Translations under genes and position numbers: made by a program
Notes under the pieces: generated by a model
What the model was told of the DNA's origin: nothing
Database searches by the model: none
The model's input: only the letters and a program-made list of their open reading frames with translations
In this document: positions 1,881 to 12,635 of the stretch, one piece after another
How positions within the stretch are numbered: the first letter of the stretch is position 1
How the letters are laid out: each line of letters begins with the position of its first letter
DNA from: a virus
Length of the DNA: 25,664 bases
Reading direction: 5' to 3' (one strand)
IMG/VR virus record: IMGVR_UViG_3300018420_000098
Coordinates: 1 to 25,664 of that record

Positions 1881-1921
1881 TTTCTTTTTTCCTTGCCTTG
1901 TGAGCAAAATAAATTATAAAA

Positions 1922-1945
1922 GTGAGTAATGGGTATTTTACTCAC
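1922..1945 (-). terminator. Hairpin with 8-bp perfect stem, possible weak terminator
   Basis: On the minus strand GTGAGTAA and TTACTCAC pair perfectly around an eight-base loop and are followed by TTTTATAATTT. The stem is AT-rich, so termination strength is doubtful. It could also shape the leader of the 36-residue gene downstream. Confidence 0.4.
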
Positions 1946-1970
1946 TACTATATATAAAAACAAGGATGTC

Positions 1971-2173: not shown

Positions 2174-2518
2174 CTATTCAACGGTAAAGCTAAAAGACCT
2201 GCTAACTGAGTGACCATCTGCTCCTACAACAGAAGCAGTTACAGTGAATTTTCCTTTAACCATATTGTCAACAGATACATTATAATCTTTCTTACTTTCT
2301 GGTGTTATTTTAAAATCGCTGTCTAGCTCAACACCGTTTTCTGATGTAACAGAGAGTTTGAGCAATCTCACATCTTGATTAAAAGATAAGGAAACCCCTG
2401 CTGCTGACCCAACAGTCGAACCACCGGCAGGGGTAGTCTCCAATAGCTTAGGATGTGCTTGTACAAATAAAGGTGCTGCTAACAAACACAGTCCTACAAA
2501 AGCTATTATTTTTTCCAT
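2174..2518 (-). CDS. copC: CopC-family periplasmic Cu(II)-binding protein
   Basis: This 114-residue protein has a Sec signal peptide (hydrophobic core FVGLCLLAAPLFVQA) whose expected cleavage after A21 leaves a mature N-terminus starting HPKLLETTPAGGS. CopC proteins are small beta-sandwich copper carriers of the periplasm that bind Cu(II) with the N-terminal His amine and a later DxH pair. Here the His is H22 (mature residue 1) and the pair is D101 and H103 in VGADGHSVSRSF, followed by the usual SFTVE ending. The Met-rich Cu(I) site of PcoC/CopC from resistance plasmids is not evident, so this looks like the Cu(II)-only class. It lies three bases after pqqA and two bases before a small membrane gene. 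In this operon it most likely supplies or buffers copper for the two PHM-like monooxygenases. The identification is strong; the delivery role is inferred. Confidence 0.85.
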   Translation of the reverse strand: MEKIIAFVGLCLLAAPLFVQAHPKLLETTPAGGSTVGSAAGVSLSFNQDVRLLKLSVTSENGVELDSDFKITPESKKDYNVSVDNMVKGKFTVTASVVGADGHSVSRSFSFTVE

Positions 2519-2521
2519 AGT

Positions 2522-2593
2522 TTAGCTATTCTTGAAGTACATAGTAACTTCAAATCCAAGGCGAATCTTTTGGTAAGTAGGTTTAGTCCACAT
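2522..2593 (-). CDS. pqqA: PqqA, pyrroloquinoline quinone (PQQ) precursor peptide, 23 residues
   Basis: A 24-codon frame starts with ATG at 2593 behind a near-perfect ribosome-binding site (TAAGGAG, eight bases before ATG) and ends in TAA. The peptide starts MWTKP and its core reads RLGFEVTMYF. PqqA is the ribosomal peptide whose Glu and Tyr side chains are cross-linked by the radical-SAM enzyme PqqE with the chaperone PqqD, then cut out and oxidised to PQQ. The diagnostic Glu-xxx-Tyr pair is E15 and Y19, the same positions as in the 23-residue Klebsiella PqqA as I remember it, and the MW.KP start and GxEVT core also agree. No pqqB, C, D or E gene is in the window, so the peptide would have to use the host enzymes. 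It sits between a PHM-like monooxygenase gene (12 bases upstream) and copC. The gene is very short, but the match in length, motif spacing and RBS is convincing. Confidence 0.85.
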   Translation of the reverse strand: MWTKPTYQKIRLGFEVTMYFKNS

Positions 2594-2605: not shown

Positions 2606-3553
2606 TTATTTCAGGTTTTTCCATGTCATTGCGCCAAAGAACATTTCGTCCTCTGACATTTGTCCCCAGGGTACTGAACGCTCGGGATCCGGGTTAGCAG
2701 GATTCATTGCTGAATTGTCAAACGCACCATCTACAGTGATAGTGGTTCCCGCTGGAATAAACTTAGGCTCTGTCCAGGTGTACGCAAGCTGCCAATCATA
2801 GTCGTAGTTAGCAACATTGATTAGGTCTTCTTGTGTGCCATCAGGATAGTATGCTACCGCCTTCATGCTCTTACCTCGCCAGTGCATGTGTGGTAAGAAA
2901 GTATGCAGTTCAATATCGTTGCGAGTCTTGATGCTCTTTGTTTGTACAAAGTTAGGATCGCCAGGAGGAATGTTTGTCCATGAATCAGGGAAGATACACG
3001 CACACATACCAGTCATTCTTTCTTCGGGCACTTCATCTTCTGGGTAGAACCAAACACCAAGTTTACTACGGTCAATTGCGGCAGTGCCGTTTGTAGTATA
3101 GTGAAGTTGTAGTTGCAGACTTGATCCTGCTTTTAGTAAGCCACCGGTGTTCTCAGGGAATACTGTTGCTGTGCCACCGGGTACATAAGCAGCCAAATCA
3201 ACTTGGTCCGCATCTCTACCAGACTGGTTACCTAAGAAGCCACCAAAGCTAGGCTTTGACTCAGGTCCTACTAATTGATTCAATGTGTGATGTAATACAG
3301 TACGGTCACCGGGCAACCACTCACTTGCTTGCACCCAACGATCCTCATCCAAGGGAACGTCTACTGTGACATAACGATATGGAATCATACCTGTTGCTGG
3401 AATTTCTTGTGCTGGCAGGTCAATGATCAAATCTGGTTCTCTGTTTAATTCTAAAGCTCCAGTCCACTTTGTCTCAGGCACGTCATATTGACGCAATGGG
3501 TCTTGTGCAAATGCCAGTGATGGCAGTAGTAACAATGCTAACCATTTATTCAT
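2606..3553 (-). CDS. Secreted PHM-like type II copper monooxygenase (stand-alone)
   Basis: This 315-residue protein starts with a signal peptide (MNKWLALLLLPSLAFAQ). It belongs to the PHM-fold family (Cu type II, ascorbate-dependent monooxygenases; in animals these hydroxylate peptidylglycine or dopamine). All six expected copper ligands are present: H88 and H89 (VLHHTLN) and H151 (LQLHYTT) for CuH, and H222 and H224 (LPHMHWRGKSM) with M304 (EDEMFFG) for CuM. The stretch PAGTTITVDGAFDNS followed by NPANPDPE is typical of bacterial members, which often carry cytochrome c or redoxin domains. The gene overlaps its upstream neighbour by eight bases (ATGAATAA) with AGGAGA before the ATG, so the two proteins are probably made in matched amounts and act as one unit. 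The substrate is unknown; peptide amidation should not be assumed. Confidence 0.82.
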   Translation of the reverse strand: MNKWLALLLLPSLAFAQDPLRQYDVPETKWTGALELNREPDLIIDLPAQEIPATGMIPYRYVTVDVPLDEDRWVQASEWLPGDRTVLHHTLNQLVGPESKPSFGGFLGNQSGRDADQVDLAAYVPGGTATVFPENTGGLLKAGSSLQLQLHYTTNGTAAIDRSKLGVWFYPEDEVPEERMTGMCACIFPDSWTNIPPGDPNFVQTKSIKTRNDIELHTFLPHMHWRGKSMKAVAYYPDGTQEDLINVANYDYDWQLAYTWTEPKFIPAGTTITVDGAFDNSAMNPANPDPERSVPWGQMSEDEMFFGAMTWKNLK

Positions 3554-4247
3554 CGTAGTCTCCTGGTGAACCGTTAGCGATCCACTGAATAAGTTTTTGT
3601 TGTTCTTCGTTAGTTAAATTCATATCATTCGTAAATTCACCTATCGTTGGATCTAATTGTCCAGGTGGCATACGTTTAGTAAGTAGTGCTTCACTTATTG
3701 CAGGACCGAATGCTTGAACAATCACATGATCGGTCATTGCCCATGGTCCAATCCCACCGTACCTATGACATGTAACACAATTGTCAATAAGTATGGGTGC
3801 TATTTCATTAGTATAAGAAGGCTCACCCCAATCAGTTTCTATTGGTTCACCTTCTTCTATGATAGACCTAAAGCCAATCTCACCCGTGATTGGATCCATG
3901 TACACGACTTCATTCAATTGGGTAAGACCCAAAGCCTTTGAGACTATTTTAGCATCATCCATCAACATAGGAACATTTTCAAATACTGCGTTTTGTTCTG
4001 TATCCCTGGGTTCGCCAGTAGGATTTAGTAAGAAAAATTTAGTTTTCTCAGTACTACCTCTATTGACTGTAGCAAAGAATCTCAGCTTTGCTTCTTCGCT
4101 ACTTTGTGCTGATGCTGTCATTATAGCAATTGTATCATAGTTACCATAATATCTCATCAAATGATAATTGCCTTCTGTATCAAGGAGGGCAAAATTTTGG
4201 GCTGATGCTGCAAAAGACAACATCATTAAACATAATATTCTAATCAT
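3546..4247 (-). CDS. Exported thioredoxin-fold plus cytochrome c protein
   Basis: I choose ATG at 4247 (233 residues) over the GTG one codon upstream; it overlaps the previous stop by eight bases. A signal peptide (LCLMMLSFAASAQ) is followed by a region of about 110 residues that looks like a redoxin domain (NFALLDTEGNYHLMRYYGNY at its start). The position where active redoxins carry a CxxC holds none, so it is probably not a thiol reductase. The C-terminal part is a mono-heme cytochrome c: CVTCH (C157, C160, H161), then GGIGPWAM and a candidate distal Met in KRMPPG (M193). In bacterial relatives redoxin, cytochrome and PHM-like domains are often in one chain; here the chain is split in two genes that overlap by eight bases. 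It probably passes electrons to the downstream monooxygenase. Heme attachment would depend on host Ccm-type maturation. Confidence 0.78.
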   Translation of the reverse strand: MIRILCLMMLSFAASAQNFALLDTEGNYHLMRYYGNYDTIAIMTASAQSSEEAKLRFFATVNRGSTEKTKFFLLNPTGEPRDTEQNAVFENVPMLMDDAKIVSKALGLTQLNEVVYMDPITGEIGFRSIIEEGEPIETDWGEPSYTNEIAPILIDNCVTCHRYGGIGPWAMTDHVIVQAFGPAISEALLTKRMPPGQLDPTIGEFTNDMNLTNEEQQKLIQWIANGSPGDYDE

Positions 4248-5562
4248 CACTTGCTGCTAAACTCCTTGCCTCACTTTCTCTACGTTCGGCCAATAATGTT
4301 TCATAACCTTCATCGTCTAAATGGGTAACAGCAATCCATGCGTGTGACATCTCGTCACCAGTACGGCTACCACCTACTACCCACATATCAGGATCAGGGT
4401 TGTTGGGATTATCAGCAGTATTATCATACCACTGCTTGAGTACTAAAACTTCACCAGGTGCTAATAATGGAGCAGCATCTTCAGCATAGATATGGCTGTG
4501 ATGCCATGTTGCACTCCATTTAGAAATCTGGCTAACAGATGTTGTACGACCTGTCTTAGGATCAAAAATCTCTAAGCTGGCAGCATTCATACGAAGGTGT
4601 CCGTGAGGCTGAAAGCTATCGATTCGTACAGGATGGTCAAAACTATGGAACCCTTGAGTCATAGCATAACCATGTGGAGGTACAATTAAGTGACCATTTT
4701 CGTAACCCTCTCTTAGAGGATACAGGCGCAAGTCCTGCTGATAGATATCTTCTTGCTCTTCAAATCCATCTTCGTGGAACCAAAGACCGATCTCTACTAC
4801 GTTGTCTTTAATCATGCCACCTTCAGCAGTTGCACCAACACCACCTGGAAACATATGAATATCCCAACGTACTAGTGAACCTGCTGGCATTGTACGACAA
4901 ACACCTTCGGGCATTACTTCACCCCATTTGCCCATTGCATACTCAGTCAACTGACCATAAGGAACAAGCTCGCCTTCTTCGTCATACATATACACATCTG
5001 AATTGGCGTGATGAACAACTGCTGCTGCATCGCCTCGTGGCTTAACTTGTACTGCTTTGATGCATTTGTTTTCTGTAAGTTGTGGGTTTACAAATTCCTT
5101 GCTCCACAAATCGTTTCCATTTGCAGGAATGTCGTATGCTTGTGAAGCAACAATCATATCAGGTTGACCGAACATAGCAGAGAATCTCCAATCATCAGGA
5201 TCTGGAATCTCTGGCAACTGAGGTACTATATCTTGGTCGCCGTAAGGAGACCCTTCATTTACCCATGCAACGATTGTGTCAATCTGCTCATCACTTAAAC
5301 GCCAGTCACCTTCCAGGTCTTGAATACCGATATGCTGATCATAAGCATAAGGAGGCATTTCTCTTGAAGCGACTTTCAATTGGATTAGTGGGGCCCACGG
5401 TCTTACCTGATCGTAAGATTCAAAACTCATTGGGCCAACGCCACCAGGACGGTGACAGGTTACACAGTTGTTGTTTATAATTTCTGCAACATCATCTGTG
5501 TATGTTTGAGCAAAAATAGCGGGCGAAACAATTGCTAGGAATAGTAACGATATCTTTTTCAT
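4240..5562 (-). CDS. Exported cytochrome c - PHM-like copper monooxygenase fusion
   Basis: The frame is open up to 5676, but I place the start at ATG 5562: it gives a clean signal peptide (MKKISLLFLAIVSPAIFAQ), has GGAG upstream, and lies 30 bases after a late promoter. The longer version would contain that promoter. The 440-residue product begins with a mono-heme cytochrome c (C33, C36, H37 in CVTCHRPGGVGPMSF; distal Met candidate M70 in REMPPY). A PHM-like region of about 300 residues follows. Its copper ligands are all visible: H184 and H185 (VVHHANSD), H236 (DIHMFPGG), H320 and H322 (QPHGHLRMN), and M405 (GDEMSHA). NPNNPDPDMW near the end is shared with the second monooxygenase of this operon. 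The heme domain probably feeds electrons to copper in place of ascorbate. The substrate cannot be told from sequence. It is the first gene of the cassette. Confidence 0.82.
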   Translation of the reverse strand: MKKISLLFLAIVSPAIFAQTYTDDVAEIINNNCVTCHRPGGVGPMSFESYDQVRPWAPLIQLKVASREMPPYAYDQHIGIQDLEGDWRLSDEQIDTIVAWVNEGSPYGDQDIVPQLPEIPDPDDWRFSAMFGQPDMIVASQAYDIPANGNDLWSKEFVNPQLTENKCIKAVQVKPRGDAAAVVHHANSDVYMYDEEGELVPYGQLTEYAMGKWGEVMPEGVCRTMPAGSLVRWDIHMFPGGVGATAEGGMIKDNVVEIGLWFHEDGFEEQEDIYQQDLRLYPLREGYENGHLIVPPHGYAMTQGFHSFDHPVRIDSFQPHGHLRMNAASLEIFDPKTGRTTSVSQISKWSATWHHSHIYAEDAAPLLAPGEVLVLKQWYDNTADNPNNPDPDMWVVGGSRTGDEMSHAWIAVTHLDDEGYETLLAERRESEARSLAASDD

Positions 5563-5591: not shown

Positions 5592-5599
5592 TATTTATA
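5592..5599 (-). promoter_or_regulatory. T4-type late promoter TATAAATA driving the accessory cassette
   Basis: An exact late box (minus strand GTTATAAATATAA) lies 30 bases upstream of the chosen start of the cytochrome-monooxygenase gene, at the same distance as in front of capsid and tail genes. It puts the copper/PQQ cassette under the phage late program. It also argues against the longer upstream start for that gene. Confidence 0.85.
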
Positions 5600-5666: not shown

Positions 5667-6167
5667 TTAGAGACATTTCGCTTTGTATTTCTTGTGTGAA
5701 CCGTTGCCGCCTCTTGCTAAGTTGCCTTGATCTAAGTTATTATCTTTAGCAAACTTTCGCAGATTTTCTATTACGAATACATTGCCTTCAGGGTCAGTTA
5801 TCTGCCACTTCTTAGATAACGCTTTTGCTACTTTGTCTTTCTGTGATTGTGGTTGTTTACGCCCAGTAGCATTTATTTTTGCCTTGTGTTCTTCTGTGAG
5901 TTTTCTTCCTGTCATAGCATCTCTCATTTTCTGTTTTGATTCTTCAGTATGCGGAACTCCTTGTCTTGCGTGTCCCCATATATCTAATTTAGTCCATTGT
6001 CCAGACAGTCCTTTCCATGCCCAGAGGTCTTGTTTCCGTCCATACTTCTCATACAGTTTACGATGCGCCTCTGCGTGTTCTTCTACAGTGAGATATACGA
6101 GATTTGATGGGTCATCTGTGCCGCCTGCGTGTCTTGGTATGATGTGATGTTTGTGATAGTGTGTCAT
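5667..6167 (-). CDS. Free-standing HNH homing endonuclease with NUMOD-type DNA-binding motifs
   Basis: This 166-residue protein begins with an HNH nuclease site: HHIIPRHAGGTDDPSNLVYL followed by VEEHAEAH, with H7/H8, N22 and H31 as the probable catalytic and metal residues. Residues 73-100 carry a NUMOD3-like helix (TEESKQKMRDAMTGRKLTEE), and residues 121-150 a NUMOD1/IENR1-like module (ITDPEGNVFVIENLRKFAKD). Homing endonucleases of this design cut intron- or gene-free alleles and spread by repair. It lies between the gp23 terminator and the accessory cassette, and no intron is visible in gp23. The start has only a weak AAAGAG ribosome-binding site, and no TATAAATA box precedes it. It may have helped bring or move the neighbouring cassette, but that is a guess. 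Confidence 0.85.
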   Translation of the reverse strand: MTHYHKHHIIPRHAGGTDDPSNLVYLTVEEHAEAHRKLYEKYGRKQDLWAWKGLSGQWTKLDIWGHARQGVPHTEESKQKMRDAMTGRKLTEEHKAKINATGRKQPQSQKDKVAKALSKKWQITDPEGNVFVIENLRKFAKDNNLDQGNLARGGNGSHKKYKAKCL

Positions 6168-6307: not shown

Positions 6308-7570
6308 TTACATTAAATTTACCACTTTAACTGCACGATAGTACTGGTTACGATCAGCAGTGAAAGTATCACCGTCAGTATTACCAGAACCGTCTACAAC
6401 GTATGGGTTAGCAATCATGCCGTAACGAGTCTTAAAGCCGATCTTGGGCTGGAAGGTCGAAGGATCAATTGCACGAACCATTTGAAGAGGTACATATGGG
6501 CAGTAGAACAGACCAGCGTCATAAGGTGAAGTACCTTTGTAGCCAGCAACGTAGAACTGTGAAGCTGCACCAGTGTTTGCGCTATATGGATCAATGTAGA
6601 CTTTGAAACGACCGTTAAGTACGCCGGCGAAAGTGTTGCCAGTGTCATCTACATTCAGGCTAGTGTTAAGAGCTGGGGCGTAATCAAGTACACCAGACAT
6701 TGCAAGAGCAGATGCTACGTCAGAAGAACAGATAATGAAGTTACCTTTTCCTCTACGAGTATCTTGTGCAATTACGTTAGCGTCACGCTCGATGTTAAAC
6801 AGCAAGCCCTTAAAACGCTCAACAGACCAGCGACCGTTTGAGTCAACGTCAAGGTCGAAAGTACCAGGAGTTGCAGTAGATGCAGAACCAGGCTTAGCGA
6901 CTTTGTAGATTGTACGAATAACTTCACGGTTAATTTCAGCAAGAATTTCTTGTGAAAGAATGTTAGAAAGCTCTGACTCAGCGTCAAGACCGTGGATAGC
7001 TTTCAGGTCTTGTGCGAGTTCTACAGTGTACTCAGCTTTCAATGCACGAGACTTGGCTGTAACAGTAGTCTTTTCGATTGAGAAAGCCATTTCGTTCAAA
7101 GTAGTTGAGTCACCGAAACCTTCAGCAGTAGAAGTTGCAACACCAGTACCAGTAGTGTAAGCACCGTCAACTGGGTTTGAACCAGCGTGAGTACCGCCAC
7201 CAGAGAAATCAGTGTCAGCTTCGTTGAAGAGTGCTTCATCACCAGTCTGGCTAGTGTAGTGTGACTTCATGGCAAAGATCAGACCAGTTGGTCCAGTCAT
7301 TGGCTGAACACCAGCAACGTCATACGCCATCAGATTAGGAAGGGCTCGCCTTACCAAGCTGATAAGAATTGGATCGTAGTTATCAACACTGCCACCAGTT
7401 TGGTTAGCGTGTGTTGCTTCCATGATACCCTTCTCTTCTTGAAGGGCCTTTTCTTGGTTTTCGAGAACTACAGCGGTAACAGCTTTCTTGTACGGATCTG
7501 CAATAGGCTGCAGGTCAGCGTGTTCAAGAACTGGTTCCCATTTGCTCTCAATTTGCTCTGAAAGATACAT
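6308..7570 (-). CDS. 23: Major capsid protein gp23
   Basis: This is the hexamer-forming HK97-fold shell protein of T4-type heads. Family motifs are clear: VRRALPNLMAYDVAGVQPM followed by TGPTG, KSRALKAEYTVELAQDLKA with HGLDAESELS, EINREVIR, and YKGTSPYDAGLFYCPYVPL with FQPKIGFKTRYG. At 420 residues it is about 100 shorter than T4 gp23 (521), as is usual in marine members. A prohead-protease site of the (L/I)xE type is visible as IME|ATHANQ, so maturation would remove a 51-residue propeptide. The start follows AAGGAG and is preceded by an exact late promoter. A strong terminator follows, fitting very high late expression. Confidence 0.97.
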   Translation of the reverse strand: MYLSEQIESKWEPVLEHADLQPIADPYKKAVTAVVLENQEKALQEEKGIMEATHANQTGGSVDNYDPILISLVRRALPNLMAYDVAGVQPMTGPTGLIFAMKSHYTSQTGDEALFNEADTDFSGGGTHAGSNPVDGAYTTGTGVATSTAEGFGDSTTLNEMAFSIEKTTVTAKSRALKAEYTVELAQDLKAIHGLDAESELSNILSQEILAEINREVIRTIYKVAKPGSASTATPGTFDLDVDSNGRWSVERFKGLLFNIERDANVIAQDTRRGKGNFIICSSDVASALAMSGVLDYAPALNTSLNVDDTGNTFAGVLNGRFKVYIDPYSANTGAASQFYVAGYKGTSPYDAGLFYCPYVPLQMVRAIDPSTFQPKIGFKTRYGMIANPYVVDGSGNTDGDTFTADRNQYYRAVKVVNLM

Positions 7571-12119: not shown

Positions 12120-12635
12120 CTAGATGTTATCGTAGTTTTGATATTGGAAAGTTACAGTAAATTCTTCAATAATATCATTTTGTGCGTACTGTAGTGCGAT
12201 TTCAGACATCTGAATTGGAAATGCATTCCTTAGAATGTAAGTACCGCCTGGCAGAACATCATCATTTCGATCCAAATGTTGAACTGTGACATCAGCTTGA
12301 TAATCAGCAGGAGTAAGAATACCTGCATTAGTTGATGTGCCATTCATTCCTTCCATCCACTGCTCAAACGGTTGACGCAATGATTGTTGAGTATCATTAA
12401 CAACAGTAATTGTCCATGGATCAAAAATTCTCTCGCCCGCCAATTTAACCTCACGACCTCTGTACTGAATGATCGCTGGGTTGACAGTTGATGCCGGAAC
12501 TGCTGCCCCAGACACCAACAGACTAAAAGAAGTGTCAACGCCTGTGACGTAGCTTGGAAAACCTAATAGTACTCTAAATTGATTAGGTCTTGCTCCTCCG
12601 GCGCCTAGTCGAGCTTTAAACTCTGTAATGTTCAT
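12120..12635 (-). CDS. 19: Tail tube protein gp19
   Basis: This 171-residue protein (T4 gp19 is 163) forms the inner tube of the contractile tail. RPNQFRVLLGFPSYV at the N-terminus, VSGAAVPASTVNPAIIQYRG, GERIFDPWTITVVND and the closing EEFTVTFQYQNYDNI are family features. It lies between sheath gp18 and portal gp20 as in T4. CAGGAG precedes the ATG, and an exact late promoter lies 21 bases upstream. Confidence 0.95.
   Translation of the reverse strand: MNITEFKARLGAGGARPNQFRVLLGFPSYVTGVDTSFSLLVSGAAVPASTVNPAIIQYRGREVKLAGERIFDPWTITVVNDTQQSLRQPFEQWMEGMNGTSTNAGILTPADYQADVTVQHLDRNDDVLPGGTYILRNAFPIQMSEIALQYAQNDIIEEFTVTFQYQNYDNI

Follow-up and report, generated by a model that had tools for sequence, protein, structure and literature searches.

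Comparative sequence analysis showed that phage pqqA, the gene for the PQQ precursor peptide, is under purifying selection and occurs, each time as an orphan, across several phage lineages. The copy that we describe here lies in an IMG/VR virus record of 25,664 nucleotides (the window, by which we mean this whole stretch), a fragment of a T4-like myovirus that encodes gp23, scaffold, prohead protease, portal, tail tube, sheath, terminase, and UvsY. In gp23 it comes nearest to the OM43 phage Melnitz (70.7% identity), followed by the SAR11 phages HTVC008M (69.6%) and Mosig (67.1%). We note that this one T4-like fragment holds two different tail-tube-like proteins (both phrog_45), at 1058-1639 and 12120-12635. 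The features relevant to pqqA are as follows.

About 1921-1946, minus strand: Rho-independent terminator-like hairpin downstream of CopC (z = -5.7)
2174-2518, minus strand: CopC, periplasmic copper-binding protein, directly 3' of pqqA (PF04234, E = 2e-15)
2522-2593, minus strand: pqqA, 23-residue PQQ precursor MWTKPTYQKIRLGFEVTMYFKNS (PF08042 and TIGR02107 above curated cut-offs; AAGGAG Shine-Dalgarno)
2606-3553, minus strand: protein B, 315 aa, probably a secreted PHM/DBH-like copper monooxygenase (invariant residues, AlphaFold/Foldseek)
3546-4250, minus strand: putative redoxin-like and CxxCH c-type haem protein, 234 aa (CVTCH motif; bacterial homologue L204)
4240-5562, minus strand: protein A, predicted c-type cytochrome with a PHM-like copper domain (invariant H184, H185, H236, H320, H322, and M405); its start was set at 5562, rather than 5676
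5592-5599, minus strand: T4-type late promoter motif TATAAATA, 30 bp before protein A (over-representation)
6308-7570, minus strand: gp23 major capsid protein, T4-like (PF07068, E = 1.7e-141)

The PqqA peptide and its recurrence in phages

The peptide MWTKPTYQKIRLGFEVTMYFKNS is the translation of a minus-strand frame running from 2593 to 2522, with Glu15 and Tyr19 four residues apart. TAAGGAG lies upstream of the start, in the context AAACCTGAAATAAGGAGAAAAAACT-ATG, and the gene fills most of an 87-base gap (2519-2605) between the ORFs at 2174-2518 and 2606-3553. A sequence-only reading of this DNA had described the 24-codon frame, its 23 residues, the Glu/Tyr spacing, TAAGGAG, and the position in the gap, all of which are borne out by the translation and the surrounding sequence. 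It had also named the peptide PqqA, an assignment confirmed by profile searches: the peptide scores 36.8 bits against Pfam PF08042 (cut-off 21.1; E = 3.7e-9 in the protein scan) and 40.9 bits against the NCBIfam equivalog TIGR02107 (cut-off 20; E = 1.2e-10). When we searched the whole 25.7-kb record with PF08042, pqqA was the sole match (E = 1.0e-9), and the same search of 14 control genomes gave zero matches. Judged by its sequence, the peptide is unambiguously PqqA. It shares with PqqA of bacterial pqq operons the length, the WTKP motif, the R.GFE[VI]TMY core, the Glu/Tyr spacing, and the Shine-Dalgarno; in contrast to them it is an orphan amid late phage genes, without pqqE in the virus records searched. 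Neighbouring pqqB-E genes are not a requirement for belonging to the family, and orphan copies are known from a methylotroph (PMC9851590).

That search, for pqqE and PQQ_2 quinoprotein domains, covered 50 related virus records, including a 41-kb record with a 99%-identical protein B, and returned no pqqE above cut-off and no PQQ_2 domain. Radical-SAM matches in one 126-kb record were weak and below cut-off. Hence the phages appear to carry the precursor alone, which, as to pqqE, fits the earlier statement that other pqq genes are absent. Because PqqA is consumed stoichiometrically, one per PQQ, and the pathway enzymes PqqB-E are catalysts already in the host, carriage of pqqA only makes sense.

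We searched IMG/VR by degenerate DNA patterns and through neighbouring proteins. A pattern for WTKP-x7-GFE[VI]TMY was present in at least 120 stretches, and a second, RLGFE-like pattern in at least 119. Among the matches listed were 188 distinct phage pqqA copies, 187 with an ATG start; a Shine-Dalgarno precedes 186 of 187 (24 in shuffles), and the length from Trp to stop is identical in all of them. The ratio pN/pS among the matches listed, a simple uncorrected count with pS near saturation, was 0.22-0.29, or 0.36-0.51 in the columns unfixed by the patterns. Glu and Tyr are four apart in all 96 distinct peptides listed, a regularity partly imposed by the search, as the DNA patterns and the motif filter themselves demand both residues. 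When 46 whole virus records were searched with PF08042, however, exactly the same 12 carriers came up as with the Glu/Tyr motif, which argues that no degenerate pqqA is hidden in these records, and the tblastn matches in isolated phages described below also keep Glu and Tyr. As a check, the sequence-only reading had asked whether related phages keep the frame, the ribosome-binding site, and the Glu/Tyr pair, with a bias to synonymous substitution. They do: frame, ribosome-binding site, length, Glu, and Tyr are all kept, and most changes are synonymous.

A tblastn search against 50,697 phage records gave 12 pqqA matches. Nine come from methylotroph phages (Venkman, MEP301, MEP401, MEP402, P19250A, and four Melnitz records), one from an uncultured podovirus, and two from Acinetobacter records. 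The one Acinetobacter record inspected, 'Acinetobacter phage MD-2021a' (CAKLQF020000010.1), was rejected as a phage: ppk and a complete pqqABCDE operon mark it as a bacterial contig. PF08042 confirmed pqqA in one record each of the six methylotroph phages (6/6 checked), whereas the four SAR11/cyanobacterial relatives HTVC008M, Mosig, S-SKS1, and AG-345-F15 gave no pqqA match. This distribution implicates PQQ-dependent hosts, in line with the earlier suggestion of a PQQ-producing host. In Venkman, P19250A, MEP301, and MEP402, pqqA sits in an annotation gap, and at the Melnitz site (record L219, 5961-6056) a probably spurious CDS, QZI94433.1, is drawn on the opposite strand. Annotation has probably overlooked phage pqqA because the gene is only 24 codons long; as the sequence-only reading had anticipated, it is unannotated or under a wrong-strand CDS in the six isolates, and it goes unmentioned in the published accounts of Melnitz, MEP301, MEP401/402, and Venkman.

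The complete genomes of Venkman, MEP301, MEP401, MEP402, Melnitz, and P19250A have in common with the window phage a stand-alone pqqA with a Shine-Dalgarno; unlike the window phage, they encode an M/L-R-F-GFE-type peptide and lack the copper cassette described below. Among contigs with R[FY]GFE-type pqqA, 121 of 181 share at least two genes with the methylotroph isolates, across four phage groups. From its sequence setting, phage pqqA has the marks of an auxiliary metabolic gene (AMG): it lies amid T4-like phage genes, occurs in complete isolate genomes, and has a host-like homologue.

The probable copper/haem operon and host

The sequence-only reading was right about pqqA itself but overlooked what surrounds it. 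Based on the same-strand genes, the late-promoter motif before protein A, and the hairpin after CopC, pqqA very probably belongs to a late operon with c-type haem/copper proteins and CopC. Protein B lies upstream of pqqA on the same strand, 12 nt away. The TATAAATA motif occurs at 8 sites in the window (2.3 expected), several of them just before structural genes, and in 12 of 25 protein-A upstream regions (0.4 in shuffles). An HNH/NUMOD homing-endonuclease-like gene at 5667-6167 lies between gp23 and the copper/PQQ operon and may account for insertion of the cassette at this site.

Protein B has six candidate copper ligands, H88, H89, H151, H222, H224, and M304 (an HH, H, HxH, M pattern), which are invariant in 30 sequences. 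Their equivalence to the PHM ligands is predicted from pattern and fold. Protein B had no match to Pfam Cu2_monooxygen or Cu2_monoox_C (a bacterial relative scored 11.1 bits against a cut-off of 23). PHM matches in a PDB profile search were weak, so we used a fold search. An AlphaFold model (pLDDT 79.6) matched PHM in Foldseek (E = 2.6e-10, probability 1.00, TM 0.53) and also resembled dopamine beta-hydroxylase. Hence we predict that protein B is probably a secreted PHM/DBH-like copper monooxygenase. The six-ligand pattern and fold are common to protein B and the PHM/DBH-type enzymes (PDB 3mll, 4zel), but the bacterial/phage branch adds c-type haem domains and has no confident Pfam match. The invariant residues of protein A follow the pattern of protein B; its model was poor (pLDDT 54.6) and was set aside. 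The 234-aa protein, for which a Pfam scan gave nothing above cut-off, resembles the N-terminal part of a bacterial 568-aa redoxin/cytochrome/PHM-like protein, as judged from the domain order of L204.

We found 104 viral stretches with relatives of protein B and kept 80; in about one quarter to one third of the kept stretches, pqqA is directly downstream of B. The phage proteins form one supported clade, beside Pseudomonadales homologues. None of the isolate phages encodes protein B, and the literature searched yielded no report of such copper monooxygenases in phages or other viruses. One 7-kb contig, binned with a Pseudomonadales MAG, encodes the tandem copper proteins and falls inside the phage clade; from this placement, it is probably a mis-binned phage contig. 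Separately, three Pseudomonadales genomes (G048, G255, and G275) and their relatives each show seven or eight matches to PHM-like copper proteins, some of them in tandem runs of proteins of about 330-360 aa.

Among the 369 Gammaproteobacteria genomes sampled, the best pqqA match was in G048 (UBA7449, Pseudomonadales), with 20/23 residues and 60/72 bases identical. This sample was centred on G048 on the strength of protein B, and the pqqA and B lines of evidence are linked in that sense only. Genes for PqqB, PqqD, and PqqE and a PqqC-family gene lie beside its pqqA, and G048 also has a copper-protein relative. Pseudomonadales with a close relative of B carry pqqA in 7/9 cases versus 58/286 for the others (p = 5e-4), an association confounded by shared ancestry; the bacterial loci that we read around a relative of B had no pqqA near. 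Taken together, these matches point to a marine, PQQ-making lineage of Pseudomonadales, akin to UBA7449, as the probable host. Another gammaproteobacterial genome, G529, has nine pqqA-like matches in different places.

Proposed function of phage pqqA

We consider it likely that the gene encodes a functional PqqA precursor that is expressed late, together with the structural genes, and supplies the host PQQ pathway. The peptide would be made late in infection and bound by host PqqD, host PqqE would cross-link it at Glu15-Tyr19, and host PqqB and PqqC would finish PQQ; in this way the supply of PQQ, and with it PQQ-dependent respiration, would be kept up or raised during host genome shut-off. 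Late supply of precursor is favoured by carriage of pqqA only, one-for-one consumption of the peptide, orphan copies in a methylotroph, and conversion in extract, besides the family models, the conservation among phages, the distribution over isolated phages, and the G048 match. The methylotroph with orphan extra pqqA copies is a PQQ overproducer, and the same paper cites the formation of PQQ from purified PqqA peptide plus cell extract (PMC9851590). Against this reading, only about a quarter of the copper-cassette virus records have pqqA, which is hence dispensable in them, and the contrast with SAR11 phages and cyanophages covers four genomes. Acetobacter gained only 29% in PQQ from pqqAB but eightfold from pqqABCDE (PMC7936290), so the precursor is not always limiting and the size of the gain may vary with the host. 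As the sequence-only reading had proposed, phage pqqA may raise PQQ supply.

A broader reading, which we hold to be rather improbable, would make pqqA and the copper/haem cassette one module, in which electrons from PQQ-dependent dehydrogenases or PQQH2 would reach the two periplasmic PHM-like copper monooxygenases by way of the c-type haems, replacing the ascorbate that animal PHM/DBH use. The arrangement of the genes speaks for it: pqqA lies 1-12 nt behind B in more than 20 contigs (138 nt in four and 398 nt in one) with downstream neighbours that differ between contigs, and in the window CopC follows pqqA directly. The cassette proteins have CxxCH and PHM-type ligand residues, and the 7/9 association in Pseudomonadales points the same way. 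However, that association has the confounder noted above, no pqqA was near the B relative in the bacterial loci read, most phage pqqA genes have no copper cassette nearby, and pqqA is absent in 34 of the 46 copper-cassette virus records searched. We hold it equally improbable, if conceivable, that marine T4-like phages possess a self-contained redox module in the periplasm, with PQQ boosted by the phage feeding electrons via phage c-type haems into phage-encoded PHM-like copper monooxygenases; such a module would be the PQQ-linked analogue of the animal enzymes that use ascorbate.

Patchiness among close relatives (pqqA is absent in the close relative L005) is what would be expected of a neutral hitchhiker acquired along with the copper cassette, but purifying selection, the kept ribosome-binding site, and pqqA without the cassette in four phage groups already disfavour this reading, which we regard as very improbable. 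We give equally little credence to a decoy that would occupy PqqD/PqqE and lower host PQQ: a peptide so near the host type would be expected to meet the same partners, but in the copies found neither cross-linked residue is lost and the length is unchanged, the host-like peptide is 20/23 identical, and a decoy would be expected to have lost Glu or Tyr in some lineages. Precursor supply is therefore the reading that we favour.

Phage pqqA is already known from Lake Baikal, where the T4-like Methylophilaceae phage VP_266 encodes it as a proposed AMG for methanol oxidation and VP_139 and VP_266 have methanol dehydrogenase (PMC7678222); reservoir viruses with pqqA, pqqD, and pqqE have also been listed (PMC13188868). 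VP_266 and the window phage have in common a pqqA in a T4-like phage. They differ in that VP_266 is one virus population that also has methanol dehydrogenase, whereas in the window phage we found no quinoprotein, another host lineage is indicated, and the neighbours are copper/haem proteins. The breadth of phage pqqA and the copper operon appear to be unreported in the literature searched. If our reading is right, supply of a ribosomally made cofactor precursor would be a common phage strategy, tying phage infection to the oxidation of methanol and other quinoprotein substrates in the ocean and in lakes. In that case pqqA would mark phages whose hosts make PQQ, and a direct test would be possible in culture, where OM43 can be paired with Venkman or Melnitz. 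The copper/haem operon, for its part, would add an uncharacterised copper enzyme family to marine phages.
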